A stretch of 64,000 bases of DNA from Hwanghaeella grinnelliae (GTDB lineage Bacteria; Pseudomonadota; Alphaproteobacteria; UBA8366; Aestuariispiraceae), in contig NZ_SADE01000004.1 in assembly GCF_004005845.1 (NCBI RefSeq), forward strand, positions 558,001 through 622,000, read 5' to 3'. The notes beneath the pieces are model-generated. The model was not told the DNA's origin. It was given only the letters and a program-made list of their open reading frames with translations, and did not search any database. Shown one piece after another: positions 1 to 22,287 of the stretch. A program made the position numbers and the translations under genes. Each line of letters opens with the position of its first letter. The stretch's first letter is position 1.

Positions 1-2
1 GG

Positions 3-1421
3 CTGCAGTTCGACATCAAGCGGGACGGGGCCGCGGCAAGGTGTGACCTGATCGTCGACTTGTCGGGCGGCGCGCCGCTTTTCCCGTCCCATGAACGCCG
101 CGACGGCTATTTCAAGCTGGACCCGGAAGACCGACCCGGGCTGTACAAGGTGTTGTTCGACATCGCCGATATGGTGGGCGAGTTCGAAAAGCCGAGATAT
201 GTGGATTTCCAGGATGCCCTATGCGCCCATTCGCGTAGCCGGGTTACGGGATGCACCCGCTGCCTCGATGTCTGCCCGGCCTCTGCCATCAAGCCGGACG
301 GCGACCATGTCACCATCGATCCCTATCTGTGCGGCGGCTGCGGCGCGTGTAACAGCGTCTGCCCGACCGGCGCGGCAGGTTATGCGGCTCCCTCGACGGA
401 AGCCCTGTTGCGGCGTGTGCGGACCCTGTTGTCCAGCTACGCGCAGGCGGGCGGCAAGGGCGCGGTTCTGCTGGTTCACGATCCTCGGCACGGGCCAGCG
501 GCGATCGAAGCGATGGCGCGCTACGGGCGCGGTTTGCCGGCCGATGTTTTGCCTTTCGAAGTTAACGAAATCACGCAGGTCGGACTCGATTTCCTGCTTC
601 CCGCCTTGGCCTATGGCGCCGACGGCATCGTCATCATGGGACCGACCGCAAAGCGGTCTGAAATCGACGGGCTTGCGGGGCAGGTCGCCATGGCGGAAGC
701 GGTCGCGACCGGCCTTGGCTATGACAGTGGATTGGTGTCGCTTGTTCTGGAGGACGACCCCCAACCGGTCGAAGACCTATTATATGCCATGCCTGCCGTA
801 GCGTCGGATCGGGCCGCAGCATCCTTCAACCCACAGGCACAAAAGCGCACCAATATCCGTTCCGCCTCGACGCATCTGCATGCCCATGCGCCAGCGCCGG
901 TCGACAATATCCGGCTGCCGGCGGGCGCCCCGTTCGGCGCGGTTCGTGTCGATACCGACGGCTGCACGCTGTGCCTTTCCTGCGTCAGTTCCTGTCCCAC
1001 CGGCGCGCTGACGGACAACCCCGACAAGCCCCAACTCGGGTTCCAGGAATCCGCCTGTATTCAGTGCGGGTTGTGCAAAAGCACCTGTCCCGAGAAGGTC
1101 ATCACCCTTGAGCCGCGGTTCAATTTCGCCGCGAACGCGGTCGAGCGGCACGTGGTGTATGAGGAAGAACCGTTCGAATGCGTTTCCTGCGGCAAGCCAT
1201 TCGCGTCCAAGAGCACGATCGAGAAGATGGTGAAAACCTTGGCCGAGAAGCACTGGATGTTCCAAGGGGCGGCCGCCGAAAAGCTGAAAATGTGCGAGGA
1301 TTGCCGCGTGCAGGCCCAGTTCAACGAACCCGGTGGGCCGATGAAACTGGGTGAGCGCCCGACGCCGCGCACGACGGAGGACTATCTCCGCGAGCGCGAG
1401 GAAGAAAACGGTAAAAACTAG
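3..1421 (+). CDS. 4Fe-4S ferredoxin-type protein, 5' end outside window
   Basis: The reading frame is open from the left edge, so the true start lies upstream and only the C-terminal part (about 472 residues) is visible. Four cysteine clusters of ferredoxin type can be read: CTRCLDVCP, CGGCGACNSVCP, CTLCLSCVSSCP and CIQCGLCKSTCP, consistent with two 2[4Fe-4S] modules separated by about 200 residues. Near the C-terminus, CVSCGKPF and CEDCR add four cysteines that could bind a further metal. Such polyferredoxins occur beside formate dehydrogenase genes in alpha- and betaproteobacteria, so an electron-transfer or FDH-maturation role is inferred. It ends 4 bases before the convergent ABC transporter operon. 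The family call is firm; the exact partner is not. Confidence 0.85.
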   Translation: MQFDIKRDGAAARCDLIVDLSGGAPLFPSHERRDGYFKLDPEDRPGLYKVLFDIADMVGEFEKPRYVDFQDALCAHSRSRVTGCTRCLDVCPASAIKPDGDHVTIDPYLCGGCGACNSVCPTGAAGYAAPSTEALLRRVRTLLSSYAQAGGKGAVLLVHDPRHGPAAIEAMARYGRGLPADVLPFEVNEITQVGLDFLLPALAYGADGIVIMGPTAKRSEIDGLAGQVAMAEAVATGLGYDSGLVSLVLEDDPQPVEDLLYAMPAVASDRAAASFNPQAQKRTNIRSASTHLHAHAPAPVDNIRLPAGAPFGAVRVDTDGCTLCLSCVSSCPTGALTDNPDKPQLGFQESACIQCGLCKSTCPEKVITLEPRFNFAANAVERHVVYEEEPFECVSCGKPFASKSTIEKMVKTLAEKHWMFQGAAAEKLKMCEDCRVQAQFNEPGGPMKLGERPTPRTTEDYLREREEENGKN

Positions 1422-4381: not shown

Positions 4382-4456
4382 AAATAAGTCCTTTTTGAAC
4401 AAGCATATTGGGTCCGCCAAAGGGATGGGCGGACAGCTATTTCAGGGCAGTGCTGT

Positions 4457-6332: not shown

Positions 6333-6809
6333 CTAGATTTCCCGGCCTATTTTTCGATCAAGGGAAAAGGCGCCGCCGCCTTTAACAGCGAAGAACAAGG
6401 CGGCTATTCCCCATAAAAGCGGGTATTCAAATCCCTTTGCTGGCCAAAAGAAGCCGTTTGCCGCATGGAACTGGACGGCGGCGGCCATGAATATTGCGAC
6501 CGCGACGGATACCGGCCGGGTCAACAGTCCCAAAACCAGACAAATGCCCCCGACAAATTCGATTATACCGACCAAAAGGGCCATCAATTCAGGCGCGGGA
6601 TAGCCCACGGACCCGAAGAAATTGGCGGTGCCCTCAAGCCCGCCACCCCCGAACGCACCAAACAATTTTTGCGCGCCATGCGGAATCAACAAGGCACCGG
6701 TCGCGACCCGCAGAGCGAGCCAGGCGAGTTTATCCAAAGATGAGTAAAGCGGCGCCAGCGCTGGTATCACCAGCTTAGAATTCGCCCCCGTTTCGGCATC
6801 AACAGCCAT
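6333..6809 (-). CDS. DoxX family membrane protein
   Basis: Integral membrane protein of 158 residues with four predicted hydrophobic helices and the DoxX-like features RVATGALLIPHGAQKLFG, LLVGIIEFVGGICLVLGLLTRP and PLLWGIAALFFAVKGGG. The ATG at 6809 is preferred over one 21 bases upstream because GGGAGG lies 5-6 bases before it. DoxX proteins are linked to quinone- or thiol-dependent redox processes and are often inducible by electrophiles. A 20-base perfect inverted repeat lies 57-76 bases upstream of the start and probably controls it. Monocistronic, convergent with the MmcQ/YjbR gene. Confidence 0.88.
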   Translation of the reverse strand: MAVDAETGANSKLVIPALAPLYSSLDKLAWLALRVATGALLIPHGAQKLFGAFGGGGLEGTANFFGSVGYPAPELMALLVGIIEFVGGICLVLGLLTRPVSVAVAIFMAAAVQFHAANGFFWPAKGFEYPLLWGIAALFFAVKGGGAFSLDRKIGREI

Positions 6810-6865
6810 TTCAACCTCCCAACGGTTCATTGATCATCTGGCTCTTCCGGCCAGCAAAAGTCACA

Positions 6866-7181: not shown

Positions 7182-7385
7182 TCACTCGATCTCGATCTCA
7201 CCGTCGATGGTGATGTCGAGTTCGACGCCGTCTACCGTCAGGCTGACCTGGGCTTTCAGCGGGCCGCTGCCCAGCGTTCCGGCATCGGCGGCGGCGCGCA
7301 CCGCGGTTTCGATTTCCCGTTGCGAGGTCACGCCGACCTTCTTCAGGAATTTCCGGATCGACATGTTGAAGGCTTCTTCGTTCAT
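7182..7385 (-). CDS. DUF6494 family small protein
   Basis: A 67-residue protein starting MNEEAFNMSIRKFLKKVG, with GGGAGGAAGCAGA directly before the ATG at 7385, which excludes the longer frame running upstream through the neighbouring gene. The sequence is an N-terminal helix followed by alternating hydrophobic strands ending GVELDITIDGEIEIE, matching my recollection of DUF6494. It is the last gene of a four-gene minus-strand operon (biotin/lipoate ligase-like, DUF6505, DUF6352, DUF6494), 29 bases after DUF6352. Function unknown; the set appears to accompany formate dehydrogenase clusters. Confidence 0.8.
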   Translation of the reverse strand: MNEEAFNMSIRKFLKKVGVTSQREIETAVRAAADAGTLGSGPLKAQVSLTVDGVELDITIDGEIEIE

Positions 7386-7414
7386 TCTGCTTCCTCCCGT
7401 AAAGACAATTGCAA

Positions 7415-8428
7415 TCAGGCCGACCGCTTCAGCGGCAGGTTCACCAACAGGTTCTGCGGTTTCATCTGCACCCGGTCGGTCTCGTCCATGGCCAAGGCCA
7501 GGTAGACCGGCTTGCCGGCAACATCGTCCAGCACCAGCGCCTGGTCCTTGATTTCCAGCCGGAACAGGCTGAGCAGCCGGGACATCTGGTCCTCGCTCAC
7601 ATCCTCGCCTTGGTAGAGTGTGTTCAGAATAGCGGTCGCGGTGCTGTCCAGGCCGATATGCCAGCGCCATTTCTCGTCGCTGATCGATTGCACCGGATGG
7701 ATGCGTGTCTCCATGCCCAGGAAATGGCCGATCCAGACCTCCATGGCGCGGCACAGCGCGTCCAGGCCCGGGCGCGGGAAGGTGATGTCCAGCACCGTGT
7801 CGAACCGGTCCGAGCGGTCCCAGTACAGATCCGCATTGTCTTCCGTCAGCACGTCCAGCGTGACTTCCCGCATGGTCGCCTGGCCTTCCATCAGCAGGCG
7901 CCCCAGATCGCCGAATCCGCCGGTCTGGGAATACATTTCCACCGTGTCTTCGTCGGCCAGCATGATGGCGCCGTCCTCGATGGTCGTGCGCTGGGAACGG
8001 AAGAACAGTTCCCCGGCGCGGGCCTGTAGCGGGTTCGCCACGCCGTCCAGCACGTTACGCGTCAAGGCATGGGCCATCTGATCGATGAACAAAGGCGGGA
8101 TCGCGACTCGTCCGCTGCGGAACAGGCCCAGGTAAAAATCCTCCAGCGTGCCCGCCGTCTTCAAATCCCGCAGGAAACCGCTTAGGACGCGGAAATTGTC
8201 CGCCGCGTCCTTGTCCGCGAAAGCATCCAGGCGGGCCGGGTCCGGCTCGGCGGTCGGGTTTTCAAACATTGCCGCATGCAGCGCGCGTTCCGCATCGCAG
8301 GATTCCTCAACGGGCGCGACCTCCGGCCGGCGCCAGAAGGCGCGGCAGTATTCGTCGGTCACCGCAAGGCGTCCCTCCGCATTGCGCTCCAATATGTGGA
8401 AGCCGCTCGTGCGCCAAAAATCCATCAT
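7415..8428 (-). CDS. DUF6352 family protein
   Basis: Soluble protein of 337 residues with no signal peptide or membrane segment. It starts MMDFWRTSGFHILERNAEGR and contains TDEYCRAFWRRPE, PVEESC and IPPLFIDQMAHALTRNVL, consistent with DUF6352. The early WxxSGxHxL-type start and the acidic middle suggest a protein-interaction role, but no catalytic motif can be named. It begins 2 bases after the DUF6505 stop, so the two are almost certainly co-translated. Its presence within an FDH/tungstate region suggests a maturation or cofactor-handling job; that is inference from neighbourhood. Confidence 0.78.
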   Translation of the reverse strand: MMDFWRTSGFHILERNAEGRLAVTDEYCRAFWRRPEVAPVEESCDAERALHAAMFENPTAEPDPARLDAFADKDAADNFRVLSGFLRDLKTAGTLEDFYLGLFRSGRVAIPPLFIDQMAHALTRNVLDGVANPLQARAGELFFRSQRTTIEDGAIMLADEDTVEMYSQTGGFGDLGRLLMEGQATMREVTLDVLTEDNADLYWDRSDRFDTVLDITFPRPGLDALCRAMEVWIGHFLGMETRIHPVQSISDEKWRWHIGLDSTATAILNTLYQGEDVSEDQMSRLLSLFRLEIKDQALVLDDVAGKPVYLALAMDETDRVQMKPQNLLVNLPLKRSA

Positions 8429-8430
8429 GC

Positions 8431-8976
8431 TTACGCTTTGTCCTCATCATCGTGATTGTCGTCCGGAACCAGCGTCCAGATCTTGGTGTGGTCCAGTTTG
8501 TCCGGCCGGGCGGCGGTACGGAATCGCTCGATGATCTGGCCGTCCTCGATTTCCCGTTCCACCATCAGCAGGCGTCCGGCGGCATGGCCTTCGCACAGTT
8601 CCTCCGCGAAGTCGATTTCCAGTTCCGCGGCCTGGCGGGCAGCTTCTTCCGAAGGCGCGCCATAGGCGTCGACTAGATGTTGAGTTAATTGCGCCACGGC
8701 CTGGGCGCGTTCCGCCGCCGTGACCGACGCGACGACGGCCAGGGTCGAGCGCCCGAAACTGCCCAGCCCCAGGAAACCCTGCCCGAAGGCAAGGCGCTGT
8801 TTCGCGGGCATCGCCTCCGGATCGGCGCCAACGAATTCGAATCCGCCGGGGATCGCCCATTCACCGGCAGGCGCCGGATGCTCGAAGGCATGGGTGTCGG
8901 ATTCGTCCAGCCGGATGGTCTTCGGCAGTTTCACGGCGGGTTCGGGCGCGGCGTGGGTATCAGCATTCATTGTCAT
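8431..8976 (-). CDS. DUF6505 family protein
   Basis: Cytoplasmic protein of about 181 residues (ATG at 8976; a GTG at 8979 and a second ATG at 8970 are alternatives). Recognised from LPKTIRLDESDTHAFE, GEWAIPGGFEF and FGQGFLGLGSFGRSTL, the pattern of DUF6505, with a charged C-terminus. It starts immediately after the ligase-like gene's stop at 8980 and ends 2 bases before DUF6352, the middle of a tight operon. No active-site residues can be named and the function is unknown. Confidence 0.75.
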   Translation of the reverse strand: MTMNADTHAAPEPAVKLPKTIRLDESDTHAFEHPAPAGEWAIPGGFEFVGADPEAMPAKQRLAFGQGFLGLGSFGRSTLAVVASVTAAERAQAVAQLTQHLVDAYGAPSEEAARQAAELEIDFAEELCEGHAAGRLLMVEREIEDGQIIERFRTAARPDKLDHTKIWTLVPDDNHDDEDKA

Positions 8977-8979
8977 CAC

Positions 8980-9768
8980 CTATTCCGCCACCCAACTTGG
9001 GCCGTGCAAAAGCCAACGCAAGGGGGCTTGCCGTTTCTTGCCGTCGCGGCTGACCATCAAGCCGCCCTGTTCGTCGAGGCCCAGCAGGCGGCCCTTGATC
9101 GACCCGCCCGGCAGTTTGAACGCGATTTTCTCCTGATATCCGTCGGCCCGACCGTCCCAGGCGTTGCGAATGGGATCGAAGCCGTCCGCTTCCCATTTCG
9201 ACACCCAGTTCAGGAAATGCCGTGCGATGCTCTCGACGATCAAGGTCGGTGCGATATCGACGCAGCCTTCATGCATCAGCGATGTGCGCTCAATCGGTTT
9301 GCCGGGAATGTCGTCGGTCGGCTCCCCCAAGACGTCCAAGCTGACACGCAGGATCATCCAGTCGGGGACGGGGTCGCTTTTCGCGGAGTCCGGACCCAAT
9401 CCTTCCGGCAAGGTCACCCTCAGGCCGCCGGCCAGCGCGCCGTTGATCATGATCCTGTCCGGCCAGCCGAAGGTGACCGCGATTTGCGGCGGGATGATGG
9501 CGCCCAAGGCGTCGGTGATAGCGACCATCATCACGTGAACGACCTTCAGCGCATCCATCAACGGGCGGTCCGGGCCGAGGATGAAGGCGGCATCGGCGAT
9601 ATCCACCCGGTCGGCGACCACGACGGTGCCTGTCGCATCTTCCCCGCGCGCAATTGTCGCCAATGCGACGTCCAGCGGCGACTCGGACGGGCCGGACAGC
9701 ATCGGTGTGAAAATAGGGGGCAGGGCGGGTAACTGGCCCGTGCCCGGCATTGTCGGGTTGTCTGTCAT
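8980..9768 (-). CDS. Biotin/lipoate-protein ligase-like protein (DUF4444 C-terminus)
   Basis: About 262 residues from the ATG at 9768, chosen because homology-like sequence begins there and the upstream extension is basic and low in family features. The N-terminal two thirds resemble the biotin/lipoate A/B ligase fold (SPLDVALATIARGEDATGTV, then VTFGWPDRIMINGALAGGLRV). The C-terminal part (QEKIAFKLPGGSIKGRLLGL to the RWLLHGPSW end) fits DUF4444. The usual biotin-ligase GRGRxG motif is not seen, so true ligase activity is doubtful. It heads the operon with DUF6505, DUF6352 and DUF6494 and is divergent from the HTH regulator. Confidence 0.75.
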   Translation of the reverse strand: MTDNPTMPGTGQLPALPPIFTPMLSGPSESPLDVALATIARGEDATGTVVVADRVDIADAAFILGPDRPLMDALKVVHVMMVAITDALGAIIPPQIAVTFGWPDRIMINGALAGGLRVTLPEGLGPDSAKSDPVPDWMILRVSLDVLGEPTDDIPGKPIERTSLMHEGCVDIAPTLIVESIARHFLNWVSKWEADGFDPIRNAWDGRADGYQEKIAFKLPGGSIKGRLLGLDEQGGLMVSRDGKKRQAPLRWLLHGPSWVAE

Positions 9769-9910: not shown

Positions 9911-10846
9911 ATGACGGATTTTGAAGAAGGGGCCGATGCCCTGATGACGACGGCGGAGGTGGCCGCCTTGCTGCGCGTCAAGGAGCGGAAGATTTACGAA
10001 CTGGTGTCTGAGAACCAGATTCCGCATACGAAAGTGACAGGCAAGCTGCTGTTCCCCAAGGCGCTGGTGCGCGATTGGATCAAGTCCGGAACATCGACGG
10101 CGGGTGCCCGGTCCCATGTGGACAGGCCCTTGGTGGCGGCGGGCAGCCATGACCCCTTGTTGGACTGGGCCTTGGCGGAATCCGGCTGCGGCATCGGCCC
10201 GATGTTCGACGGGTCGCTGGACGGGTTTGCCCGGTTCCGGCGCGGGGAGGCTCTGTTCGCCGGAATCCACGTGCCGGACCCGACCGGAACGACGCATAAT
10301 TTTCACTTGCTGGACAAAGCGCGGGAGGAGGACCTCTCCCTGGTTTTGGTCACCTGGGCGGTTCGCCGGCAGGGCCTGATGTTCCGGCCGAGGGAAGGCC
10401 TGCCGCCGGGCGGCGGGGATCCCTTGTCCGGGCTGGCTGGGTCCGGATTGCGGGTTCAGCGCCGCCAGGATACGGCGGGCAGCCGGGTTCTTCTCGAAGG
10501 GTTGTTGGAACGCCACGCGGCAGCGCAAGGCGGAATCGATGCGGTGAACTGGTCCGAAACAGCGGCCCGGACGGAAACGGAAGCCGCGCTGGCGGTTCTG
10601 GAAGGGGCGGCGGACGCGACCTTCGGGATAGAGACGGTCGCGAAGCGTTTCAAACTGACCTTCGTGCCCGTGGCGACCGAGCGCTATGACATCTTGATCG
10701 CTCAGAACGACTTCTTCGCATCCGCCTTTCAGAAACTGTTGGTCTTCGCCCGCTGCGCAGCGTTTGCGGAAAAGGCAGCCGCGCTCGGGGGCTATGACAT
10801 CGCTCTACTAGGGACCACGCCAGACCGAACTGCGTCATTTAGCTAA
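9911..10846 (+). CDS. HTH (excisionase/MerR-type) regulator with binding-protein-like domain
   Basis: A 311-residue one-component regulator. Residues about 10-60 form an excisionase-type winged HTH (MTTAEVAALLRVKERKIYEL, then a segment ending LVRDWI). The rest resembles a periplasmic-binding-protein-like type II domain (PF12727 type), ending FFASAFQKLLVFA, as found in molybdate/tungstate-sensing regulators. It lies convergent to and beside tupA, so it is the natural candidate to sense tungstate or molybdate and control tupBCA and perhaps the divergent ligase/DUF operon. The start ATG lacks a strong Shine-Dalgarno sequence; an ATG about 11 codons in is an alternative. Confidence 0.78.
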   Translation: MTDFEEGADALMTTAEVAALLRVKERKIYELVSENQIPHTKVTGKLLFPKALVRDWIKSGTSTAGARSHVDRPLVAAGSHDPLLDWALAESGCGIGPMFDGSLDGFARFRRGEALFAGIHVPDPTGTTHNFHLLDKAREEDLSLVLVTWAVRRQGLMFRPREGLPPGGGDPLSGLAGSGLRVQRRQDTAGSRVLLEGLLERHAAAQGGIDAVNWSETAARTETEAALAVLEGAADATFGIETVAKRFKLTFVPVATERYDILIAQNDFFASAFQKLLVFARCAAFAEKAAALGGYDIALLGTTPDRTASFS

Positions 10847-10935: not shown

Positions 10936-11775
10936 TTAGCTTCCGGCTTTATCCGCATTCGGGAAGAACAGCTGCTTGCCGTCCACCATATAAGCGCCGA
11001 TTGCCTCTTGCCCGGCGGGCGAGAGCATCCAGTCGATGAAGACCTGGCTTTCCTTCACCTTCACATGCGGGTGCTTTTCCGGGTTCACGGCGATGATGCC
11101 GTACTGATTGAACATGGCGGCATCGCCTTCGACGGCGATTTGATAGTCGCCCTTGTTGCCGAATTTGATCCAGGTGGCGCGGTCGGTCATCACATAGGCC
11201 CCCATGCCGATGCCCGTATTCAACGTCGCCCCCATGCCGGATCCGGTTTCCCGATACCAGCCACCGGCCGGTTCGACACCGGCGGCCTTCCACAAGCTGC
11301 GTTCCTTTTTATGGGTTCCGGAATCGTCGCCGCGGGAAGCGAAGGGCGCTTCCGACGCGGCGATCTTTTTCATCGCCGCTTTCACCTCGCTCATGCCGGC
11401 AACCCCGGCGGGATCGTCCGCGGGGCCGACAATGACGAAGTCGTTATACATAAGGTCGGACCGTTTCACGCCGAAGCCGTCGGCAACGAACTTTTCCTCG
11501 GCGCTCTTGGCATGAACCAGCAACACGTCGCCATCGCCGTTGCGGGCGTTCTTGATCGCCTGGCCGGTGCCGACCGCGACGACGCGGACCTCGATGCCTT
11601 TCTCCTTCTGGAAGATCGGCAGCAGATAGTCGTAAAGGCCGGAATTCAGGGTCGAGGTCGTGGATTGCACCGTGATGAACGGCATATCCGCGGCGACGGC
11701 TTGGCCCAGGGTCACTGCCGCGGCGCCGGCAAAGGCGGCGGCGAGGACAAATCTGCGGGTGAAGGTTCTGTTCAT
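10936..11775 (-). CDS. tupA: Tungstate ABC transporter substrate-binding protein TupA
   Basis: Periplasmic tungstate-binding protein, 279 residues from the ATG at 11775 (GGGAG 8 bases upstream; a GTG at 11784 is also possible). A Sec or possibly Tat-like signal (RRFVLAAAFAGAAAVTLGQAVA) precedes the mature start. TupA hallmarks are the VQSTTSTLNSGLYDYLLP anion-binding start, the SRGDDSGTHKKERSLW loop and GMGATLNTG. It lies 31 bases downstream of tupC as the last gene of a tupB-tupC-tupA operon. Tungstate import fits the formate dehydrogenase encoded 6 kb away, which needs a W- or Mo-bis-pterin cofactor. Confidence 0.9.
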   Translation of the reverse strand: MNRTFTRRFVLAAAFAGAAAVTLGQAVAADMPFITVQSTTSTLNSGLYDYLLPIFQKEKGIEVRVVAVGTGQAIKNARNGDGDVLLVHAKSAEEKFVADGFGVKRSDLMYNDFVIVGPADDPAGVAGMSEVKAAMKKIAASEAPFASRGDDSGTHKKERSLWKAAGVEPAGGWYRETGSGMGATLNTGIGMGAYVMTDRATWIKFGNKGDYQIAVEGDAAMFNQYGIIAVNPEKHPHVKVKESQVFIDWMLSPAGQEAIGAYMVDGKQLFFPNADKAGS

Positions 11776-11806
11776 GTTTCTCACTCCCGTGTTTTCGTTG
11801 AAAGGA

Positions 11807-12640
11807 TCAGATGACGAGTTGGCCGCTCAGATAGGCGCGGGCCTCTTCCGATTGCGGCTGGGTAAAAAAGGTCTCAGCCGGTGTGAACTCCGCGATCCGA
11901 CCTTGCGACACAAAGACCACCTCGTCGGCGATCCGTTTCGCTTGGCCCATGTCATGGGTCACCATGACGATTTTTGTGCCGCGTTCGTGGCTGCTTTGGA
12001 TCAACCCTTCGATGGCATGCGTCGCCTGTGGGTCCAGGCTGGCGGTCGGCTCGTCAAGCAACAGCATTTCCGGAGATGCGGCTAAGGCCCGTACTGTGGC
12101 CAGCCGCTGTTGCTCACCGCCGGAAAGGGACCGGGCCGGCTGGTCTCGCCGATCCTGGAGATTTCCCAGCGTGAGCAGTTCTTCGAGCCGGGCGGCGCGT
12201 TCGGCGCGCGGTACCCGCAGCACACGCAGAGCATGGGTCAAGTTCGCCGCGACGGACCGGCGCAGCAGCACCGGGCGCTGCAAGACGATCGAAACCGGGG
12301 GCGCGCCAGACGGCATGCCGCCCGTCGCGCTCCCCGGCGTACCCCCCTGGGTACCTTGTCTGGAATTCCAATCCCGTCGCCAGGTAAGCTTCCCGCGGGT
12401 CGGGCTTATCAATCCCTGCATCAGGCGCAGCAGCAGGCTCTTGCCGGCGCCGTTCGGGCCCATGATGACGGTGCGGTTGCCTGGGCCGATGGTCAGCGAA
12501 ACATCGTGCAGCAGATCAGCTCCATTGACCCCGAAGCAGACGTTTTCCAGTGATACCGGCAGCAAGGGCGTCGGGGCAGTTCGGTCGGACTGCCCGATCC
12601 CGGCAAAGCCTTGTTGCGTGCTCATCGTGTCCTCAGACAT
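11807..12640 (-). CDS. tupC: Tungstate ABC transporter ATP-binding protein TupC
   Basis: ATPase of the tungstate importer, 277 residues. Walker A is GPNGAGKS, the signature LSGGEQQR, Walker B LLLDEPTASLD, and the H-loop VMVTHD. An insertion between the Walker A region and the Q-loop (around WNSRQGTQGGTPGSATGG) is Gly/Pro/Ser-rich and unusual for the family; it may be a flexible linker. The ATG at 12640 overlaps tupB by 8 bases; a second ATG at 12625 has GAGGA just upstream and may be the true start. There is no TOBE domain, as expected for TupC. Confidence 0.88.
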   Translation of the reverse strand: MSEDTMSTQQGFAGIGQSDRTAPTPLLPVSLENVCFGVNGADLLHDVSLTIGPGNRTVIMGPNGAGKSLLLRLMQGLISPTRGKLTWRRDWNSRQGTQGGTPGSATGGMPSGAPPVSIVLQRPVLLRRSVAANLTHALRVLRVPRAERAARLEELLTLGNLQDRRDQPARSLSGGEQQRLATVRALAASPEMLLLDEPTASLDPQATHAIEGLIQSSHERGTKIVMVTHDMGQAKRIADEVVFVSQGRIAEFTPAETFFTQPQSEEARAYLSGQLVI

Positions 12641-13340
12641 AGGCCAACCGCTTGGCGCTGCCGCGCAGGCTCATAACCGCCGCGTTGATCAGCAGGGACA
12701 GGGATATCAGCACCAGCCCCAGCCCCAAGGCCAACGACAGGTTCCCGCGCGACGTCTCCAGCGCGATGGTCGTGGTCATGACCCGTGTCACATGGTTGAT
12801 ATTGCCGCCGACGATCAGCACCGCGCCAACCTCTGCCGCGGCCCGTCCGAAACCCGCCAAGGCCCCGGTGATCAGGGAGTAGCGTGCGTCCCAGAGCAAG
12901 CTGGGAACGGCGCGGGCGCCGAATAGGCCCATGCTGCGGAACTGTTCGTCATATTCCTGATAAAGGTCCTCGACCACCTGCCGGGTCATAGCCGTGACGA
13001 TCGGGGTCACCAATACGGCCTGCGCGATGATCATCGCGGTCGGTGTATAGAGCAGGGCGAGCGGGCCGAGCGGTCCGGACCGGGACAGCAGCAGATAAAG
13101 AAACAGGCCGGCGACCACCGGCGGCAATCCCATGAAGGCGTTCACGATGACGACGATGACGGTTCGGCCGGGGAAGCGCGCCACGGCGAGGAAGGCACCG
13201 AAGGGGAAACCGATCAGGCAGCCGATGAAGACCGCACTTAAAGTGACGCGCAGGGATAGGAAGACGATCTCAGTCAGGTCCGAATCGAAGGTCAGCAGCA
13301 AACGACCTGCTTCCCAGAAGGCGGACTGAAGTTCCTGCAC
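12633..13340 (-). CDS. tupB: Tungstate ABC transporter permease TupB
   Basis: Inner-membrane permease of 235 residues starting at a GTG. Several hydrophobic helices are visible, and the coupling motif EYDEQFRSMGLFGARAV followed by LITGALAGFGRAAAEVGAV is typical of TupB/ModB-like permeases. It is the first gene of the operon; an AT-rich region upstream (13341-13683) separates it from the divergent VPLPA-CTERM gene and must hold its promoter. Confidence 0.9.
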   Translation of the reverse strand: MQELQSAFWEAGRLLLTFDSDLTEIVFLSLRVTLSAVFIGCLIGFPFGAFLAVARFPGRTVIVVIVNAFMGLPPVVAGLFLYLLLSRSGPLGPLALLYTPTAMIIAQAVLVTPIVTAMTRQVVEDLYQEYDEQFRSMGLFGARAVPSLLWDARYSLITGALAGFGRAAAEVGAVLIVGGNINHVTRVMTTTIALETSRGNLSLALGLGLVLISLSLLINAAVMSLRGSAKRLAYV

Positions 13341-14360: not shown

Positions 14361-14818
14361 CGTTGCGATGGATGGAAATCAGAGAATGCGGGACGCAGAC
14401 TAATTCCGTGCGGTTGGCATGGCCTGTCCAAGAAAGATAGCGGCGCAGCATTTTATGTTTGTTGCCTAGGGCCCTCGAGCACTGATCGCGCCGGTTGCCG
14501 GATCGATGGGGTCTACGCTTCTTGGACCTTTTCTACGTGGATTCGGTCATTCACTCTTGGGGACGAATGTTGGGGGCATGGGATCGTCGGGTTTGCCGCT
14601 CCGTTTTCGCCGTCGGATATGTGATTTCTGTTGAAATTTGTCTTTATTTTCGATCTCCCGACCATTCATCCGCCGACTCGAAAAAATATGCTGCTACATA
14701 GGGTTAGACCCCTCGACGAAGCCCGGCCCGGTGCTATGTTGATTGGGTAAGGCCATCCGCGAAGAGATGTGTTTTACCGCGTCGGTGTGTGACTGGCGCA
14801 AGGGTTGGGAGAGTAGAC
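14361..14818. other. Noncoding region upstream of the DUF3305 gene
   Basis: About 460 bases with no supported gene. It must contain the promoter for the DUF3305/DUF3306/TorD/FDH genes. I looked for FNR-type (TTGAT-N4-ATCAA) and sigma-54 boxes and found no good match. Confidence 0.5.
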
Positions 14819-15412
14819 GTGTCCGAACTGAATTCGGGGGCGAATCCAGGTTCAGAACTGAAAGACGAGCTTCCTGTGGGAATCGTCGCGGAAAAGCGGC
14901 GGATCGATCACCCATGGCAGGAGTTCAAGTGGTTGCCTGTCGCGGTTGTTCCGGGCGCCGGGCCGAATGACGGCTGGCTGAAGACTGGGGGCGGCGATGG
15001 GTACGAGCAATTTCTTATCGGGACTCTGACGGTCGAGGTCTTCCGGAAAGAGACGGAGGCCTACAAAGCCAACTTGTCCGGCACCCGCCCCAGCGTCTAT
15101 GTGGTGCTGCGCACCGCGGAAGATCCTGACGATCCGGAAATCCGCGCCGTCTTCGCCACGGTGTCCCCTTATGAAGCGCAGGATTATCTGGATACGGGCG
15201 AAGACATCGTCGAGCCGGTCCCATTGCCCGAAAGTATGGCGGCTTGGCTGCAGGCCTTCATTGACCGGCACCATGTCGACGAACCGTTCAAGAAGAGAAA
15301 GCGTAAGGATTTCAAAGACGAAGAGCCTAAATTTGGTAAGGTTCTTCATCCCAGTGAGCAGCGCTTTTACAAGACCGGCGCACGCGATCTGTTGGGCGAG
15401 GGGGGCGAATGA
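14819..15412 (+). CDS. DUF3305 domain protein, FDH-associated
   Basis: Cytoplasmic protein of 197 residues. The GTG at 14819 is chosen because GGGAG stands 7 bases upstream. DUF3305 features are PVGIVAEKRRIDHPWQEFKW, a beta-rich middle with YVVLRTAEDPDDPEIRAVFA, SPYEAQDYLDTGED and a lysine-rich C-terminus. The gene overlaps DUF3306 by 4 bases (ATGA). The DUF3305-DUF3306 pair precedes TorD and formate dehydrogenase genes in many proteobacteria, so an assembly or maturation role is inferred; no activity is established. Confidence 0.88.
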   Translation: MSELNSGANPGSELKDELPVGIVAEKRRIDHPWQEFKWLPVAVVPGAGPNDGWLKTGGGDGYEQFLIGTLTVEVFRKETEAYKANLSGTRPSVYVVLRTAEDPDDPEIRAVFATVSPYEAQDYLDTGEDIVEPVPLPESMAAWLQAFIDRHHVDEPFKKRKRKDFKDEEPKFGKVLHPSEQRFYKTGARDLLGEGGE

Positions 15413-16161
15413 GCGATAGCGGTTCCCGTCTCTCACGTTGGTCGCAGATGAAGTCGGAAGCGCGGCGTCAGAGCCGTGTGCGCTTCTCGGTGCCGGAGGA
15501 GGAAGTCGCCGCGCCTGTTGCCGCAACCGAGAATGCTGGTGAAACGGCAGATGAATGTGCGCCGTTGGATATCGAAGAAGCGGTGCTGTCTGTCGAACCC
15601 AGCAATGTCGCCGAGGCAAGCCAAGATCCGCGCGATGATGCCCCGGATTTGCCCGATATCGAGGATTTGGATGGGGCTTCCGACTATTCCGCCTTCATGT
15701 CGGACAAGGTCTCCGACACGGTGCGGAACATGGCCCTTCGGAAATTATGGCGCACGGATTCGGTCTTCGCCAATCTCGACGGTCTGATCGACTATGGGGA
15801 AGACTTCACGGATGCGGCGACCGTGGTCGAAGGGATGAAGTCGGTCTATACGGTTGGGCGCGGCATGGTCGACTACGAAGCCGAGGATGCCGCCAAGCTT
15901 GCGGCGCAAGAAGCGGAGGCAGCTGAGGCGCAATTGTCGGGCGGCGCCGGAGAGGCTCCGGCGGATACTGAAAATGACAATCTTGATGGTGCGGACGAAA
16001 GTGACGTCGTGCGTCGGGATGTCGCGGAGGATGGTGAGCGTGAGGCTCTCGATTCTAACATTGAACATCAGAGTGATTACATAATTAACTCTAATCAAAA
16101 GAAAATAGAGAGTTCTGATGGCGCAATCGTTGACCCGGAGAAGCGGGAGGCGAGTGTTTGA
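15409..16161 (+). CDS. DUF3306 domain protein, FDH-associated
   Basis: 250-residue acidic protein, overlapping the DUF3305 stop by 4 bases. The conserved DUF3306 core is an RLSRWSQMKSEARR N-terminus, then SDKVSDTVRNMALRKLWRTD and FANLDGLIDYGEDF near residues 95-130. The last 90 residues are Glu/Ala/Asp-rich and probably disordered. No membrane segment. With DUF3305 it is probably an accessory factor for assembling the FDH encoded downstream. A 117-base gap with no visible feature separates it from the TorD-like gene. Confidence 0.87.
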   Translation: MSDSGSRLSRWSQMKSEARRQSRVRFSVPEEEVAAPVAATENAGETADECAPLDIEEAVLSVEPSNVAEASQDPRDDAPDLPDIEDLDGASDYSAFMSDKVSDTVRNMALRKLWRTDSVFANLDGLIDYGEDFTDAATVVEGMKSVYTVGRGMVDYEAEDAAKLAAQEAEAAEAQLSGGAGEAPADTENDNLDGADESDVVRRDVAEDGEREALDSNIEHQSDYIINSNQKKIESSDGAIVDPEKREASV

Positions 16162-16278: not shown

Positions 16279-16980
16279 ATGGATTCGTATGCCTGTATTC
16301 GTTTGGACGGCGGAGCGGGTAACGGAAAACCAGCCAAGGTGCAGGGTAGGGAAGGAACTTTGGTGCCAGAGTCTGTTGCAGCGGCCGTGAATGATATTGC
16401 TCCGGAAGATCGGGGACGGGCGATACTATACTCATTCCTCGCCAAGGTTCTCTATGCCGCACCAAAGCAGGACATCACCGAAACAGCCCAATATTATGCC
16501 AGCGACGATTCTGAATTAGGACGTTCTTTCAAAGAGTTCTTGTCTGCTTTCAAGGGTTCGGATGAGGCTGTCGTCGGGCGAGAATATCATGATCTTTTCA
16601 TCGGCGTCGGGCGTGGTGAACTGCTGCCATTCGGCAGTTATTACCTGACCGGATTTCTGAACGAAAAACCGTTGGCAGAGCTTCGCGCCGACCTCAACGA
16701 GTTGGGGTTCGAGCGCGCGATGGGCGTCAGCGAGCCCGAGGATCATATCGCAACCCTTTGCGATGTGATGAGCCAACTCGTCGTCGGCACCGCGGATGGC
16801 GAATTCACGCTTTTCGATCAAGACAGGTTTTTCGCCGCCCATCTGAAGCCTTGGGCGGGCAAGTTTTTCGCCGACCTTCAATCGGCGAAGAAGGCCGATC
16901 TGTACCGAACCATCGGTCGGATCGGTGAAGTGTTCATGACGATTGAGGAGGACGGGTTCTCGATGATCGCGCGGGCCTGA
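16279..16980 (+). CDS. TorD/DmsD-family chaperone
   Basis: All-helical cytoplasmic chaperone of 233 residues that would bind the Tat signal or apo-form of the molybdo/tungsto-enzyme before export. Family signature: EYHDLFIGVGRGELLPFGSY, followed by YYLTGFLNEKPLAELR and the EPEDHIATLCDVMSQLV helix. The first 35 residues are not typical, so translation may begin at a later start. It stands directly before the Tat peptide and fdh alpha genes, the expected position for a dedicated FDH chaperone. Confidence 0.88.
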   Translation: MDSYACIRLDGGAGNGKPAKVQGREGTLVPESVAAAVNDIAPEDRGRAILYSFLAKVLYAAPKQDITETAQYYASDDSELGRSFKEFLSAFKGSDEAVVGREYHDLFIGVGRGELLPFGSYYLTGFLNEKPLAELRADLNELGFERAMGVSEPEDHIATLCDVMSQLVVGTADGEFTLFDQDRFFAAHLKPWAGKFFADLQSAKKADLYRTIGRIGEVFMTIEEDGFSMIARA

Positions 16981-17099
16981 AGGTCCGGCGGTCAATGGAA
17001 AGTCCCGGTCGCAGCGGCCGTCATGAAATTCACCGCCGGATTGGCAGGTTGCTCCGATAGGAGGAACGCCGGGCCGGCACATTTGGGAGACTTTTGAAC

Positions 17100-17294
17100 A
17101 TGGCAACGCAAAGCAAGGAAGAAGTCAGCCGTCGCGCTTTCTTCGGGGCGGCCGGTAAGGGCGCCGCGATTGGATTGGGCACGGTCGTGGCTGCGGCCAG
17201 CGGTGCGCAGGCGGCCGAGGTGGAAGCACCCGGCGGTCAGCACTATCGCGCAACCGACCACGTGAAGACTTATTACAATTCGGCCAAGTTCTAA
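17100..17294 (+). CDS. Small Tat-signal protein of FDH region (TIGR02811 type)
   Basis: 64-residue peptide, ATG at 17100 with GGGAG 10 bases upstream. It contains a twin-arginine signal (SRRAFFGAAGKGAAIGLG) and a short mature tail ending TDHVKTYYNSAKF. Such mini-proteins occur immediately upstream of formate dehydrogenase alpha genes; they are thought to assist FDH maturation or targeting, though the mechanism is not known to me. Two small GNRA-like hairpins lie between it and fdhA. Confidence 0.85.
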   Translation: MATQSKEEVSRRAFFGAAGKGAAIGLGTVVAAASGAQAAEVEAPGGQHYRATDHVKTYYNSAKF

Positions 17295-17454: not shown

Positions 17455-20331
17455 ATGCTTCGCAAAAAGACAAACGGGGTTGCATTCGGCCCCCGGGCGT
17501 CGCTAGCCGCCGGCTCAGGCCGCGGCGAAGTCGTCGATAGACGGACGTTCCTGACCCGCTCCGGCCTTGTGGCCGGAACCGCCGCCGCCGTAGCGGCCGC
17601 ACCGGCAGGTCTCGTCACTCGGAAGGCTCGCGCGCAATCGGCAGGCGCCAGCCGCACGATCCAGACAGTGAAGAGCGTGTGTACGCACTGCTCCGTCGGC
17701 TGCACGGTGATCGCGGAAGTGGATAACGGCGCTTGGATCGGGCAGGAGCCCGGTTTCGACAGTCCGTTCAACCTGGGTGCCCATTGCGCCAAAGGGGCCT
17801 CGGTCCGTGAACACGCCCATGGTGAACGCCGCCTGAAATACCCGACGAAACTCGTCGACGGGAAATGGACGCGCGTTTCCTGGGAAGATGCGATCAACGA
17901 GATCGGCGACAAAATGTTGGAGATCCGCGAGCAGTCGGGACCGGATTCGGTCTACTGGCTGGGATCGGCGAAGCATAGCAACGAACAGGCCTATCTGTTC
18001 CGGAAGTTCTACGCTTTCTGGGGCACCAACAACGGTGACCATCAGGCGCGTATCTGTCATTCGACCACGGTTGCGGGTGTTGCGAACACCTGGGGCTACG
18101 GCGCGATGACGAACTCTTACAACGATATCCACAATTCCCGCGCCATCTTCATCATCGGCGGGAACCCGGCCGAGGCCCATCCGGTCTCGCTGCTCCACGT
18201 TCTGAAGGCGAAGGAACAGAACAACGCGCCGCTCATCGTCTGCGACCCGCGCTTCACGCGCACGGCCGCTCATGCCGATGAATATGTCCGGTTCCGTCCG
18301 GGCTCCGACGTTGCGCTGATCTGGGGCCTTCTCTGGCACATTTTCGACAATGGCTGGGAAGACAAGGAATTCATTCGCCAGCGTGTCTGGGGCATGGATC
18401 AGATCAAGGAAGAAGTGAAGCGTTGGACGCCGGAAGAGACCGAGCGCGTCACGGGCGTCCCCGGCTCGCAGCTGAAGCGGGTCGCGCGCACCATGGCGAA
18501 CAACCGTCCGGGTACCGTGATTTGGTGCATGGGCGGTACGCAGCACACCAACGGTAACAACAACACCCGCGCTTACTGCATCCTGCAATTGGCTTTGGGC
18601 AACATGGGTGTTTCCGGCGGCGGCACGAATATTTTCCGCGGCCATGACAACGTTCAGGGCGCCACCGACCTCGGCGTGCTCTGCCATACCCTGCCGGGTT
18701 ACTACGGCATCAAGACCGGCTCATGGAAACATTGGTCGCGTGTCTGGGATGTCGATTACGACTACATGCTCGGCCGGTTTGCCTCAAAGGACCTGATGGA
18801 GACCGCCGGCATGCCGGTGTCTCGCTGGATCGACGGCGTGCTGGAGGCGAAAGACAGCCTGCAGCAGCCCGACAATCTGCGGGCCATGGTGTTCTGGGGT
18901 CACGCGCCGAACTCTCAGACCCGTCTGAAGGAAATGAAGACGGCGATGGAGAAACTGGACCTGCTGGTGGTCGTCGATCCATATCCGACGGTCAGCGCGG
19001 TGCTGAGCGACCGGAAGGACGGTGTCTATCTGCTGCCGGCCGCGACGCAGTTCGAGACCTATGGGTCCGTCACCGCGTCCAACCGGTCCCTGCAATGGCG
19101 TGACAAGGTGTTCGATCCACTGTTCGAATCGCTGCCCGACCACACCATCATGTACAAATTCGCCAAGAAGTTCGGATTCGCGGACGAGATGTTCAAAAAC
19201 ATCTCGGTCGAAAATGACGAACCGAATGTCGAAGAGACCCTGTTGGAAATCAACAAGGGCATGTGGACCATCGGCTATACCGGCCAGACGCCGGAACGGC
19301 TGAAGAAGCACATGGCGAACCAGTACACCTTCGACAAGACCACGCTGCAGGCAGTCGGCGGGCCGTGCGACGGTGAGTATTACGGGTTGCCTTGGCCTTG
19401 CTGGGGAACGGCGGAAATGGGGCATCCCGGAACGCCGAACCTGTACGATCCGTCCAAGCCGGTGGCTGAAGGCGGTTTGACCTTCCGCGCCCGGTTCGGT
19501 GTGGAACGCGATGGGGACAATCTGCTTGCAGAGGGTTCCTATTCCGTCGGATCGGAAATCAAGGACGGGTATCCTGAGTTCACGATGGCCATGCTGACCA
19601 AGCTCGGCTGGGACGGTGATCTGACGGCGGACGAAAAGGCCGCCATCGATGCCGTCGCGGGCGAGAAGACGAACTGGAAGACCGACCTGTCCGGCGGTAT
19701 CCAGCGCGTCGCCATCAAGCATGGTTGTGCGCCCTTCGGAAACGCCAAGGCCCGTTGCGTGGTGTGGAACTTCCCGGATCCGGTGCCGACGCATCGCGAA
19801 CCGCTCTACACGTCGCGGCGCGATCTTGTCGCCGATTACCCGACCTACGAGGACCGCGTGATGTATCGTCTGCCGACGATGTTCGCGTCGATCCAGAAGA
19901 AGGATTTCTCACAGGACTTCCCGACGATCCTCACCTCCGGCCGTCTGGTCGAATACGAGGGCGGCGGGGACGAAACCCGCTCCAACCCGTGGCTTGCGGA
20001 GTTGCAGCAGGACATGTTCGTCGAGATCAATCCGCGCGACGCCAACAATCTCGGCATCCGGGACAAAGACATGGTGTGGGTCCACGGGCCGGAAGGCGCC
20101 AAGGTCAAGGTGATGGCGATGGTCACCGAACGGGTCGGTTCAGGTGTTGCCTTTATGCCCTTCCATTTCGGTGGGCATTTCGAGGGCAAGGACCTGCGCG
20201 ACAAGTACCCGGAAGGGGCTGACCCATACGTCCTTGGGGAATCAACAAACACGGCACAAACATACGGCTATGACTCGGTGACCAATATGCAGGAAACCAA
20301 AGCCACCCTGTGCCGCATCGAACGCGCGTGA
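17455..20331 (+). CDS. fdhA: Formate dehydrogenase catalytic (alpha) subunit, Cys type
   Basis: 958-residue periplasmic Mo/W-bis-pterin enzyme oxidising formate to CO2. A twin-arginine signal sits at about 29-35 (DRRTFLTRS). The [4Fe-4S] site uses Cys76, Cys79, Cys83 and Cys111 (CTHCSVGC ... HCAKG). The active site is ARICHSTT: Cys201 with His202, where selenoenzymes have Sec, so no SECIS is needed. Pterin-binding stretches include IIGGNPAEAHPV and IWCMGGTQHTNGNNN; the C-terminal molybdopterin-binding domain runs from about residue 815. Length matches FdnG/Fdh-N-like enzymes. It lies 11 bases before the beta subunit. Confidence 0.96.
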   Translation: MLRKKTNGVAFGPRASLAAGSGRGEVVDRRTFLTRSGLVAGTAAAVAAAPAGLVTRKARAQSAGASRTIQTVKSVCTHCSVGCTVIAEVDNGAWIGQEPGFDSPFNLGAHCAKGASVREHAHGERRLKYPTKLVDGKWTRVSWEDAINEIGDKMLEIREQSGPDSVYWLGSAKHSNEQAYLFRKFYAFWGTNNGDHQARICHSTTVAGVANTWGYGAMTNSYNDIHNSRAIFIIGGNPAEAHPVSLLHVLKAKEQNNAPLIVCDPRFTRTAAHADEYVRFRPGSDVALIWGLLWHIFDNGWEDKEFIRQRVWGMDQIKEEVKRWTPEETERVTGVPGSQLKRVARTMANNRPGTVIWCMGGTQHTNGNNNTRAYCILQLALGNMGVSGGGTNIFRGHDNVQGATDLGVLCHTLPGYYGIKTGSWKHWSRVWDVDYDYMLGRFASKDLMETAGMPVSRWIDGVLEAKDSLQQPDNLRAMVFWGHAPNSQTRLKEMKTAMEKLDLLVVVDPYPTVSAVLSDRKDGVYLLPAATQFETYGSVTASNRSLQWRDKVFDPLFESLPDHTIMYKFAKKFGFADEMFKNISVENDEPNVEETLLEINKGMWTIGYTGQTPERLKKHMANQYTFDKTTLQAVGGPCDGEYYGLPWPCWGTAEMGHPGTPNLYDPSKPVAEGGLTFRARFGVERDGDNLLAEGSYSVGSEIKDGYPEFTMAMLTKLGWDGDLTADEKAAIDAVAGEKTNWKTDLSGGIQRVAIKHGCAPFGNAKARCVVWNFPDPVPTHREPLYTSRRDLVADYPTYEDRVMYRLPTMFASIQKKDFSQDFPTILTSGRLVEYEGGGDETRSNPWLAELQQDMFVEINPRDANNLGIRDKDMVWVHGPEGAKVKVMAMVTERVGSGVAFMPFHFGGHFEGKDLRDKYPEGADPYVLGESTNTAQTYGYDSVTNMQETKATLCRIERA

Positions 20332-20342
20332 GGAGACGATAA

Positions 20343-20939
20343 ATGGCTAGAATGAAGTTCCTCTGCGACGCCGAGCGCTGCATCGAATGCAACGCCTGCG
20401 TCACGGCGTGTAAGAACGAGCATGAAGTGCCCTGGGGCATCAACCGGCGGCGGGTCGTGACCATCAACGATGGCAAGCCCGGCGAACGGTCGATCTCGGT
20501 GGCCTGCATGCATTGCTCTGATGCGCCTTGCATGGCCGTTTGCCCGGTCGACTGTTTCTATCAAACCGATGACGGCGTGGTCCTTCACTCCAAGGACCTC
20601 TGCATCGGCTGCGGCTATTGCTTCTACGCGTGCCCGTTCGGCGCGCCGCAATATCCGCAGGCGGGCAATTTCGGAAGCCGCGGCAAGATGGACAAATGCA
20701 CCTTCTGCAACGGCGGTCCGGAAGAAGACATGTCGGAAGCCGAATTCCAGAAATACGGCCGCAATCGCCTGGCTGAGGGCAAGCTTCCGCTTTGCGCGGA
20801 AATGTGCTCGACCAAGGCATTGCTCGCGGGTGACGGGGACGTTGTTTCCGGCATTTACCGCGAACGCGTCGTCGCCCGCGGCTTCGGCAGCGGCGCCTGG
20901 GGTTGGGGCACGGCCTATGATCAGAAGGGCGGGTCGTAA
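20343..20939 (+). CDS. fdh3B: Formate dehydrogenase iron-sulfur (beta) subunit
   Basis: 198-residue electron-transfer subunit carrying four [4Fe-4S] clusters. Cysteine sets: CIECNACVTACKNEH, CMHCSDAPCMAVCP, CIGCGYCFYACPFG and the CTFC/CAEMC pair. No membrane anchor, consistent with the Fdh3B type, in which the gamma subunit supplies the anchor. It is co-transcribed with the alpha gene (11-base gap, AGGAG site). It would pass electrons from the alpha-subunit cluster to the haem b of the gamma subunit. Confidence 0.95.
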   Translation: MARMKFLCDAERCIECNACVTACKNEHEVPWGINRRRVVTINDGKPGERSISVACMHCSDAPCMAVCPVDCFYQTDDGVVLHSKDLCIGCGYCFYACPFGAPQYPQAGNFGSRGKMDKCTFCNGGPEEDMSEAEFQKYGRNRLAEGKLPLCAEMCSTKALLAGDGDVVSGIYRERVVARGFGSGAWGWGTAYDQKGGS

Positions 20940-21126
20940 CCCATCTTTCGAGGTTGTGTGACAGTTGATGGGGGAGGCGACCGTGCTGGGCAGGGTCGCC
21001 TCTCTTGTCGATTGCCCCGCTGGATGTCGAATCCAATGGAATGTCTACCCATGTGGAATGTCCGATAAACCAGGCCATTGATAAGCCCGCGAAGCCTTGG
21101 CGCCTGTCGGACCTTCGGAGGAAAAG

Positions 21127-22287
21127 ATGAAACGGTCGATGATTGCTACGAGAAGACTGAGCGGCTTGATCGCGTCCATGGTGGTGGCCGCGGTATTGTT
21201 GATGCTGGCACAGCCGGTTATGGCGCAAAACTCATCATCCGTCCGGCCGCCCGAGAGCGCTGTCGGCGGGGCCGTTCCCGGCAATACGCTCGGTACCGAA
21301 AGCGATGCCGATCAGTGGCGCGCCATTGAATCGGGCGCGGCGGGAACAACCAGCGCCGGCGGTTTCAACGCCAATGTGCTGATCCAGAATCCGGTCCTGA
21401 CCGCTGGCGCCAATGCGGGGACTATCGGCCGAACAGTCAGTTCCGGCATGCGTTGGTTGGAAGTCCGCAATGGGCCGTTGCAGAAATATGGCAGCTATGG
21501 CCTCGGCGCGATTATCGTGGTCCTCGTGTTGTTTTTCGCAATCCGGGGACGGGTCAGGATTGAGCACGGCGCGGCGGGCCGGACGATCGAGCGCTTCAAA
21601 CTGATCGAACGGATCGGCCATTGGCTGACGGCGGTTTCCTTCGTGCTGCTTGGTCTGACCGGTTTGTGGCTGCTCTACGGCAAGACCATTCTCATCCCCT
21701 ATATCGGCCACGAGGCCTACGCGTCGATCGCCTATGTCGGCAAGCATATCCACCATTATTTCGGCTTTGCTTTCATGGTTGGGCTGGTGCTGATCTTCGT
21801 GATGTGGGTCCGTCACAACATTCCGAACATGATCGACGTAAAATGGGCTGCGAAGGGCGGCGGCGTTCTGGTAAAGGGCGTTCATCCGCCGGCGGAGAAG
21901 TTCAATGGCGGACAGAAGGTCATTTTCTGGGCGACGATTCTGGGGGGCGTGTCCCTGTCGCTGTCCGGTCTTGCCTTGATGTTCCCGGGTGAACTGCCTG
22001 CAATGTTCGCCAAGACCTTCGCGCTTATCAATATGCTGGGTTTCTCGCTACCGACGGAGCTCTCCCCGGTTCAGGAACTGCAATTGTCCCAATTGTGGCA
22101 TTCGATCGTGGCGCTGATCATGATCGTCATCATCATCGCGCATATCTATATCGGCACCATCGGGATGGAAGGTGCGTTCGATGCTATGGGAACGGGCGAT
22201 GTCGATGTGAACTGGGCCAAGGAGCATCACAGCCTTTGGGTCGAGGAAGTCGAACGGAAACAGGCAAGGAAAATGCCCGCGGAATAG
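21127..22287 (+). CDS. fdhC: Formate dehydrogenase cytochrome b (gamma) subunit
   Basis: 386-residue membrane subunit. The ATG at 21127 has GGAGG 6 bases upstream; a signal peptide (LIASMVVAAVLLMLAQPVMA) is followed by a roughly 80-residue periplasmic segment and five or so hydrophobic segments. Likely haem b ligand histidines lie in the helices: IERIGHWLTAV, GKHIHHYFGFAF and LWHSIVALIM. It would carry electrons from formate to the quinone pool or to periplasmic cytochromes. The long N-terminal periplasmic extension is typical of the FdoI/Fdh3C-like branch with a signal sequence. A 187-base gap separates it from the beta gene. Confidence 0.92.
   Translation: MKRSMIATRRLSGLIASMVVAAVLLMLAQPVMAQNSSSVRPPESAVGGAVPGNTLGTESDADQWRAIESGAAGTTSAGGFNANVLIQNPVLTAGANAGTIGRTVSSGMRWLEVRNGPLQKYGSYGLGAIIVVLVLFFAIRGRVRIEHGAAGRTIERFKLIERIGHWLTAVSFVLLGLTGLWLLYGKTILIPYIGHEAYASIAYVGKHIHHYFGFAFMVGLVLIFVMWVRHNIPNMIDVKWAAKGGGVLVKGVHPPAEKFNGGQKVIFWATILGGVSLSLSGLALMFPGELPAMFAKTFALINMLGFSLPTELSPVQELQLSQLWHSIVALIMIVIIIAHIYIGTIGMEGAFDAMGTGDVDVNWAKEHHSLWVEEVERKQARKMPAE

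Follow-up and report, generated by a model that had tools for sequence, protein, structure and literature searches.

In a stretch of 64,000 nucleotides from Hwanghaeella grinnelliae (contig NZ_SADE01000004.1, positions 558,001 to 622,000; hereafter the window), four adjacent genes encode a degenerate relative of biotin protein ligases (BPL), termed here the pseudo-ligase, and three proteins of the DUF6505, DUF6352 and DUF6494 families. As these genes usually accompany one type of formate dehydrogenase (FDH), they are probably helpers that build this enzyme. With modest confidence, we regard them as a dedicated accessory module of one FDH, a periplasmic FdhABC of the fdh3 kind that is exported by twin-arginine translocation (Tat) and depends on tungsten or molybdenum; the module proteins would be cytoplasmic assembly factors acting before export. 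The support for a link to FDH is strong in the case of DUF6352, DUF6505 and the pseudo-ligase and weaker in that of DUF6494.

All four genes lie on the minus strand and were assigned by Pfam. The pseudo-ligase (8980..9768) matched BPL_LplA_LipB_2 (PF16917) with 178.5 bits, against a gathering cut-off of 27, and was further characterized through its solved relative 3bfm and by alignment with canonical BirA proteins, one of which (L291) is encoded separately in the same genome. The DUF6505 protein (PF20115, 180.8 bits; 8431..8979, about 180 residues) starts with GTG, with an alternative ATG possible at 8976 or 8970. It is followed by the DUF6352 protein (PF19879, 270.4 bits; 7415..8428, 337 residues) and the DUF6494 protein (PF20104, 98.8 bits; 7182..7385, 67 residues), all three scores being, like that of the pseudo-ligase, well above the gathering cut-offs; AlphaFold2 models were used for DUF6505 and DUF6352, and an alignment for DUF6494. 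The gaps between the genes, in this order, are 0, 2 and 29 bases, in agreement with an earlier note on this DNA, which had described four tightly packed genes with spacings of -1 to 29 bases.

The co-occurrence of these families with FdhA was examined in a sample of 240 genomes across the class (the class sample), with FdhA called at E <= 1e-180. FdhA of this type was present in 36 genomes. DUF6352 was found in 31 genomes, 30 of which also had FdhA (Fisher p 4e-31; the Fisher tests were uncorrected for relatedness), whereas FdhA was encoded by 6 of the 209 genomes without DUF6352. Thus, the family is far from being equally common with and without FDH, the outcome that by the earlier note's criterion would have undone the FDH link. 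The sole DUF6352 genome without FdhA (G007) is an assembly of 810 contigs, in which TupA and a WD40 gene adjoin DUF6352. The pseudo-ligase was present in 25 genomes (24 with FdhA), DUF6505 in 24 (22 with FdhA; weaker matches in G091 and G202 were not counted) and DUF6494 in 39 (25 with FdhA). As a control we used FdhD, present in 125 of the 240 genomes, 91 of which lacked this FdhA; among these 91, DUF6352 was found in one, DUF6505 and the pseudo-ligase in one, and DUF6494 in 13. Since they are nearly absent from FdhD genomes without this FdhA, the pseudo-ligase, DUF6352 and DUF6505 follow one FDH type and not FDHs generally, while DUF6494 is distributed more broadly. Within families, a comparison that drew on listings labelling part of the 240 genomes, nine families were mixed for DUF6352 (f1, f16, f36, f52, f68, f71, f94, f107 and f128) and FdhA varied in parallel in all nine; in f76 and f125, FdhA varied and DUF6352 was absent throughout.

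The association did not require the genes to be neighbours. A scan of named genomes for relatives of DUF6352 yielded at least 578 loci, and among the best 80 of them an FDH-cluster marker was present in 23, another module gene in 27 and both in 22. In 52 of these 80 loci DUF6352 was an orphan, with none of six markers in view (pseudo-ligase, DUF6505, DUF6494, FdhA, DUF3305 and the 4Fe-4S protein described below); many of the 52 end at a contig edge, and an FdhB-like match was seen in L185. FdhA was nevertheless encoded in 42 of the 50 genomes tested from this orphan set, and 18 of the 19 orphan genomes in which the full 10 kb could be seen on each side had FdhA elsewhere, with no module or FDH marker nearby. 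This test and the class-sample test overlap, as at least five genomes (G028, G051, G128, G200 and G226) appear to be shared, to judge by the identical coordinates of their FdhA hits. That unrelated genes came to lie beside FDH by chance is the least credible of the alternatives we considered: the gene combinations are patchy and the orphan copies of DUF6352 stand in housekeeping surroundings (read by eye as nrdJ and accC, or elsewhere accA and tilS), but orphan DUF6352 tracks FdhA genome by genome.

On the same by-eye reading, accC stood near orphan DUF6352 in 9 of the 52 loci (cluster 37; L129, L131, L190 and others) and accA in 15 (cluster 12; L148, L156, L186 and others). Both are genes of acetyl-CoA carboxylase, which is the usual substrate system of BirA, and their pairing with a BirA relative is perhaps a coincidence, perhaps not.

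Where the module genes occur together, their arrangement is conserved. Two or more of the four genes were found together in 50 of the 129 loci searched, always on the same strand and never on opposite ones; the order pseudo-ligase (BPL), DUF6505, DUF6352 was unchanged wherever these genes were present in the 50 loci, with DUF6494 either first or last. As strand and order are kept across these loci, the grouping exceeds chance. An FDH-cluster marker was present in 16 of the 29 class-sample loci that were refetched. In 6 of 29 and 6 of 80 loci, a co-directional DUF3305 gene that leads into the FDH genes lies no more than 70 bases beyond the DUF6352 domain; in one more of the 29 the distance is 390 bases. 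No open reading frame carried two of the nine families searched, hence there is no evidence from gene fusion. On plasmid pB of Sinorhizobium meliloti, which is typed as conjugative, the genes for the pseudo-ligase, DUF6505, DUF6352, DUF3305, DUF3306, TorD and FDH are co-directional, and DUF6494, an ABC (ATP-binding cassette) importer, a helix-turn-helix (HTH) regulator, MoeA-like genes, mobA and fdhD are nearby. A similar plasmid cluster of Sagittula sp. P11 is without DUF6352.

The pseudo-ligase can be aligned with BirA over most of its length. In an alignment with 13 canonical BirA proteins, all 20 pseudo-ligases, the window protein included, lacked the GRGRxG biotin/ATP loop, with a gap of 15 columns at its position, and none of the 20 had the KWPN of the KWPND motif that carries the catalytic lysine; the window protein reads GWPDR. 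The ligase-fold protein without GRGRxG that the earlier note had pointed out is therefore without its catalytic lysine as well. A canonical GRGRxG-bearing frame was found for 13 of the 14 BirA candidates examined. A solved relative, 3bfm (E 5.9e-51, profile positions 1-217), was deposited as biotin protein ligase-like of unknown function, and one literature search found no relevant paper on it. For the genome counts, PF16917 matches below about 109 bits were left out, as the four of them that were inspected (L251-L254) are canonical BirA. The loss of the motif was confirmed in 22 of the 25 class-sample pseudo-ligases, including one retained at 109.9 bits (G233, motif absent), and the other three (G022, G096 and G071) were counted on score alone. 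G087 (L249, 114.7 bits) was dropped because it, too, is a canonical BirA.

Given the missing loop and lysine, transfer of biotin or lipoate by the standard mechanism is unlikely for these proteins. This bears on the task that the earlier note had proposed for the four genes, an unrecognised lipoyl-type or metal-pterin modification used by the nearby FDH. Its FDH half holds, less firmly in the case of DUF6494 than for the other three proteins, but the modification chemistry is not supported. We consider such a covalent step, carried out by the ligase-like protein and its partners, very unlikely: membership in PF16917, the link to FDH and the strong conservation of polar residues in DUF6352 are in its favour, and opposed to it are the missing loop and lysine of all 20 aligned members, the lack of a biotinyl or lipoyl acceptor domain among the Pfam matches listed for the cluster proteins, and five genomes from outside the class that have FdhA without DUF6352, DUF6505 or the pseudo-ligase.

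These five genomes come from a phylum sample of 200 genomes, which overlaps the class sample. All nine DUF6352 genomes in it have FdhA, and 13 of its 22 FdhA genomes are without DUF6352. Seven of the 13 keep the pseudo-ligase and DUF6505, namely four of family f23 and three from outside the class (f179), in which FdhA is 78-79% identical and shares its contig with both genes at a distance of 5-7 kb. The remaining six, the five just mentioned (f175 and f177, FdhA 65-69% identical) and G387, lack all of the three genes compared here, DUF6352, DUF6505 and the pseudo-ligase. The only ligase matches seen were of 25 bits in two of the five and of 32.7 bits in G387. In some lineages, then, the FDH can be made without DUF6352, DUF6505 and the pseudo-ligase, and the module is not universally needed; therefore a helper role is favoured and an obligatory chemical step is disfavoured.

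The AlphaFold2 models, both confident, of DUF6352 (mean predicted local distance difference test, pLDDT, 91; predicted template modelling score, pTM, 0.89) and DUF6505 (pLDDT 87.5, pTM 0.79) gave nothing at E <= 0.001 in a Foldseek search against the PDB. The best VIA-align superpositions were unconvincing (DUF6352: Z 4.7, 47 residues, root-mean-square deviation 2.3; DUF6505: Z 3.2, 67 residues, 4.0), so that no function was drawn from structure for either protein. Searching PDB sequences with the DUF6352, DUF6505 and DUF6494 profiles returned nothing at E < 0.07, and a weak match of DUF6505 to DUF7715 (1.4e-4, below the cut-off) led nowhere. Many polar residues of DUF6352 are invariant in the alignment, and there is a KPQN motif near its C-terminus; these features may mark a conserved site for binding or catalysis. 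By eye, none of the four module proteins has an obvious hydrophobic N-terminus, and for this reason we take them as cytoplasmic. Pfam matched none of the four to a DNA-binding domain, a recognisable redox-cofactor domain or a P-loop NTPase family.

The module probably acts in the cytoplasm before export, in assembly and quality control of apo-FdhA and FdhB. On this reading the pseudo-ligase would have given up catalysis to become a BirA-derived binding scaffold, and DUF6505 and DUF6352 would be its partners in a complex. The step most likely served would be the loading of iron-sulphur (Fe-S) clusters, possibly along with the bis-MGD cofactor; we favour it because some clusters have, between DUF6494 and the pseudo-ligase, an inserted gene for an Fe-S carrier of the Mrp/NBP35 type. 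Such a gene stands beside the pseudo-ligase in six clusters (L034, L035, L197-L199 and Sagittula). L197-L199, which come from FdhA genomes without DUF6352, share with Sagittula the order DUF6494, Mrp, pseudo-ligase, DUF6505; in L034 and L035, Mrp precedes the pseudo-ligase and no FDH gene is in the stretch. The Mrp of Sagittula matches two families, NUBPL iron-transfer NTPase and FeS_assembly_P. A divergent DUF6352 had been expected in the gap of L197-L199, and the gene there turned out to be Mrp. Tentatively, one could go as far as to propose that the loop-stripped ligase scaffold, with DUF6352, DUF6505 and perhaps an Fe-S-linked DUF6494, passes Fe-S clusters supplied by Mrp, the tungsten or molybdenum cofactor, or both to one FDH ahead of Tat export. 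As Mrp was present in only 7 of the 129 loci searched, 5 of them beside the pseudo-ligase, these neighbours are a hint at the step served and not proof of it.

The rarity of Mrp is one of several findings that weigh against an accessory module for FDH assembly. Among the 36 class-sample genomes with FdhA, only 9 have all four genes, and one has none of them. DUF6494 occurred in 14 class-sample genomes without this FdhA, and 8 of the 50 orphan DUF6352 genomes show no FdhA, all eight being metagenome-assembled genomes by title. The six phylum-sample genomes with FdhA but no DUF6352, DUF6505 or pseudo-ligase belong here too, as does the failure of Foldseek and VIA-align to give a structural match that suggests a function for DUF6352 or DUF6505. 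Finally, DUF6494 lies near a gene read by eye as sdhB in 5 of the 14 loci printed (L257, L259, L261, L271 and L280), hinting at a wider Fe-S role of this protein. The gene sdhB codes for the Fe-S subunit of succinate dehydrogenase, and the pairing spans genomes with and without this FDH.

The surroundings of the module in the window matched the earlier note's description of metal importers and a sensor-like gene: there are a FecCD-type importer (1426-4420), an HTH gene with a PBP_like domain (9911..10846, plus strand), the tungstate-type ABC importer TupA, TupC and TupB (10936..13340, minus strand) and then the FDH cluster, all assigned by Pfam. TupA scored 221.7 bits in NCBIfam, below the 400-bit cut-off of that model. 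Relatives of the HTH and PBP_like gene, a candidate oxyanion sensor, occur near the module in L036, L038, L046, L117 and L119, and S. meliloti pB has an annotated HTH regulator at the same place. Because the PBP_like domain is also fused to MoeA on that plasmid, the regulator may sense molybdate or tungstate. It could be asked whether the module is itself regulatory, with a pseudo-ligase that retains ligand binding, in the manner of the BirA repressor, and tunes the expression of FDH or of tungstate uptake. The adjoining regulator and TupABC, as well as the kinship with BirA, are compatible with this, but the four proteins match no DNA-binding domain, the biotin/ATP loop is deleted and DUF6352 can occur without an FDH gene within 10 kb; we regard regulation as unlikely.

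A multi-4Fe-4S protein of the FDH cluster is encoded at the left end of the window (1..1421, plus strand; Pfam), its frame extending past that end, and is a frequent neighbour. This might suggest that, rather than in assembly, the module has its part in the electron transfer or coupling of FDH, together with the 4Fe-4S protein; such a role is improbable in our judgement, and still less expected than regulation, as the four proteins have no recognisable redox-cofactor domain and many cofactor genes (MoeA-like, MobA, FdhD and TorD) are annotated in the Sinorhizobium cluster.

The FDH cluster of the window, on the plus strand, begins at 14789 with DUF3305 and DUF3306 (14789..16161), followed by a TorD/NarJ-type chaperone (16279..16980; NCBIfam TorD 50.5 bits, below its cut-off) and, after a small gene, by FdhA, FdhB (4Fe-4S) and FdhC (cytochrome b561 type; 17455..22287), as assigned by Pfam. 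The small protein between torD and fdhA (17094..17294) was recognised from its sequence; it has a Tat-like RRAFF start (ATG at 17100), and the annotations of S. meliloti pB and Sagittula show a counterpart in the corresponding position. FdhA starts with a Tat-like RRTFL motif, which we take to be its export signal, and has Cys201 followed by His, a candidate from the sequence for what we presume to be the active site. Its nearest solved relative is 9vap_A (named FdhA; 1419.7 bits), and the FdhB homologue on two plasmids with the same gene setting is annotated as 'FDH3 subunit beta'. Downstream of fdhC and outside the four-gene module are a WD40-repeat gene and a trypsin-like/PDZ gene (22312-24683); relatives of one or both recur beside the same FDH in many loci. 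Elsewhere, a DoxX protein (6333-6830) gave a weak, sub-cut-off match to the HvfX copper-RiPP (ribosomally synthesized and post-translationally modified peptide) maturation family, and an EpsH-type exosortase with a DUF3485 domain (25573-27174) is unrelated to the four genes.

FDHs of this kind are relevant to work on CO2 reduction, and incomplete knowledge of the helpers makes active tungsten or molybdenum FDH hard to produce. A defined set of genes whose presence follows one FDH type from genome to genome provides a short list for deletion or co-expression. It also suggests what the three DUF families, and 3bfm as a solved structure with no function attached, are likely to do. None of the papers in the literature searched names DUF6352, DUF6505 or DUF6494. 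PMC4464133 describes fdhGHI operons accompanied by DUF3305, DUF3306 and a Tat-signal protein. For FDH1 of Methylorubrum, PMC13197769 describes a MoeA1-MobB-MobA-FdhD pathway that assembles the tungsten cofactor, and a moeA1-mobB-tupBCA cluster; a term search of its main text gave no 'biotin', 'lipoate' or 'unknown function'. The module resembles the Methylorubrum pathway as dedicated maturation of a tungsten FDH, and differs in that the window FDH is of another type.

Compared with BirA-type ligases, the pseudo-ligase keeps the WP strand and a weak, below cut-off match to BPL_C, whereas the 15-column gap has removed GRGRxG and the KWPND lysine is gone. Mrp/NBP35 Fe-S carriers adjoin the module in some lineages, and the module proteins themselves match no P-loop NTPase family. 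The closest likeness in role is to the maturation proteins TorD/NarJ, FdhD and FdhE, as the module is linked to one cognate enzyme and a TorD-type gene is in the same cluster. Unlike members of those families, the window proteins and the DUF6352 and DUF6505 alignments have no Pfam match to them, and the module is distributed more narrowly than FdhD. If the hand-over scaffold proposed above is correct, it would represent maturation machinery of a kind distinct from NarJ/TorD, FdhD and FdhE.

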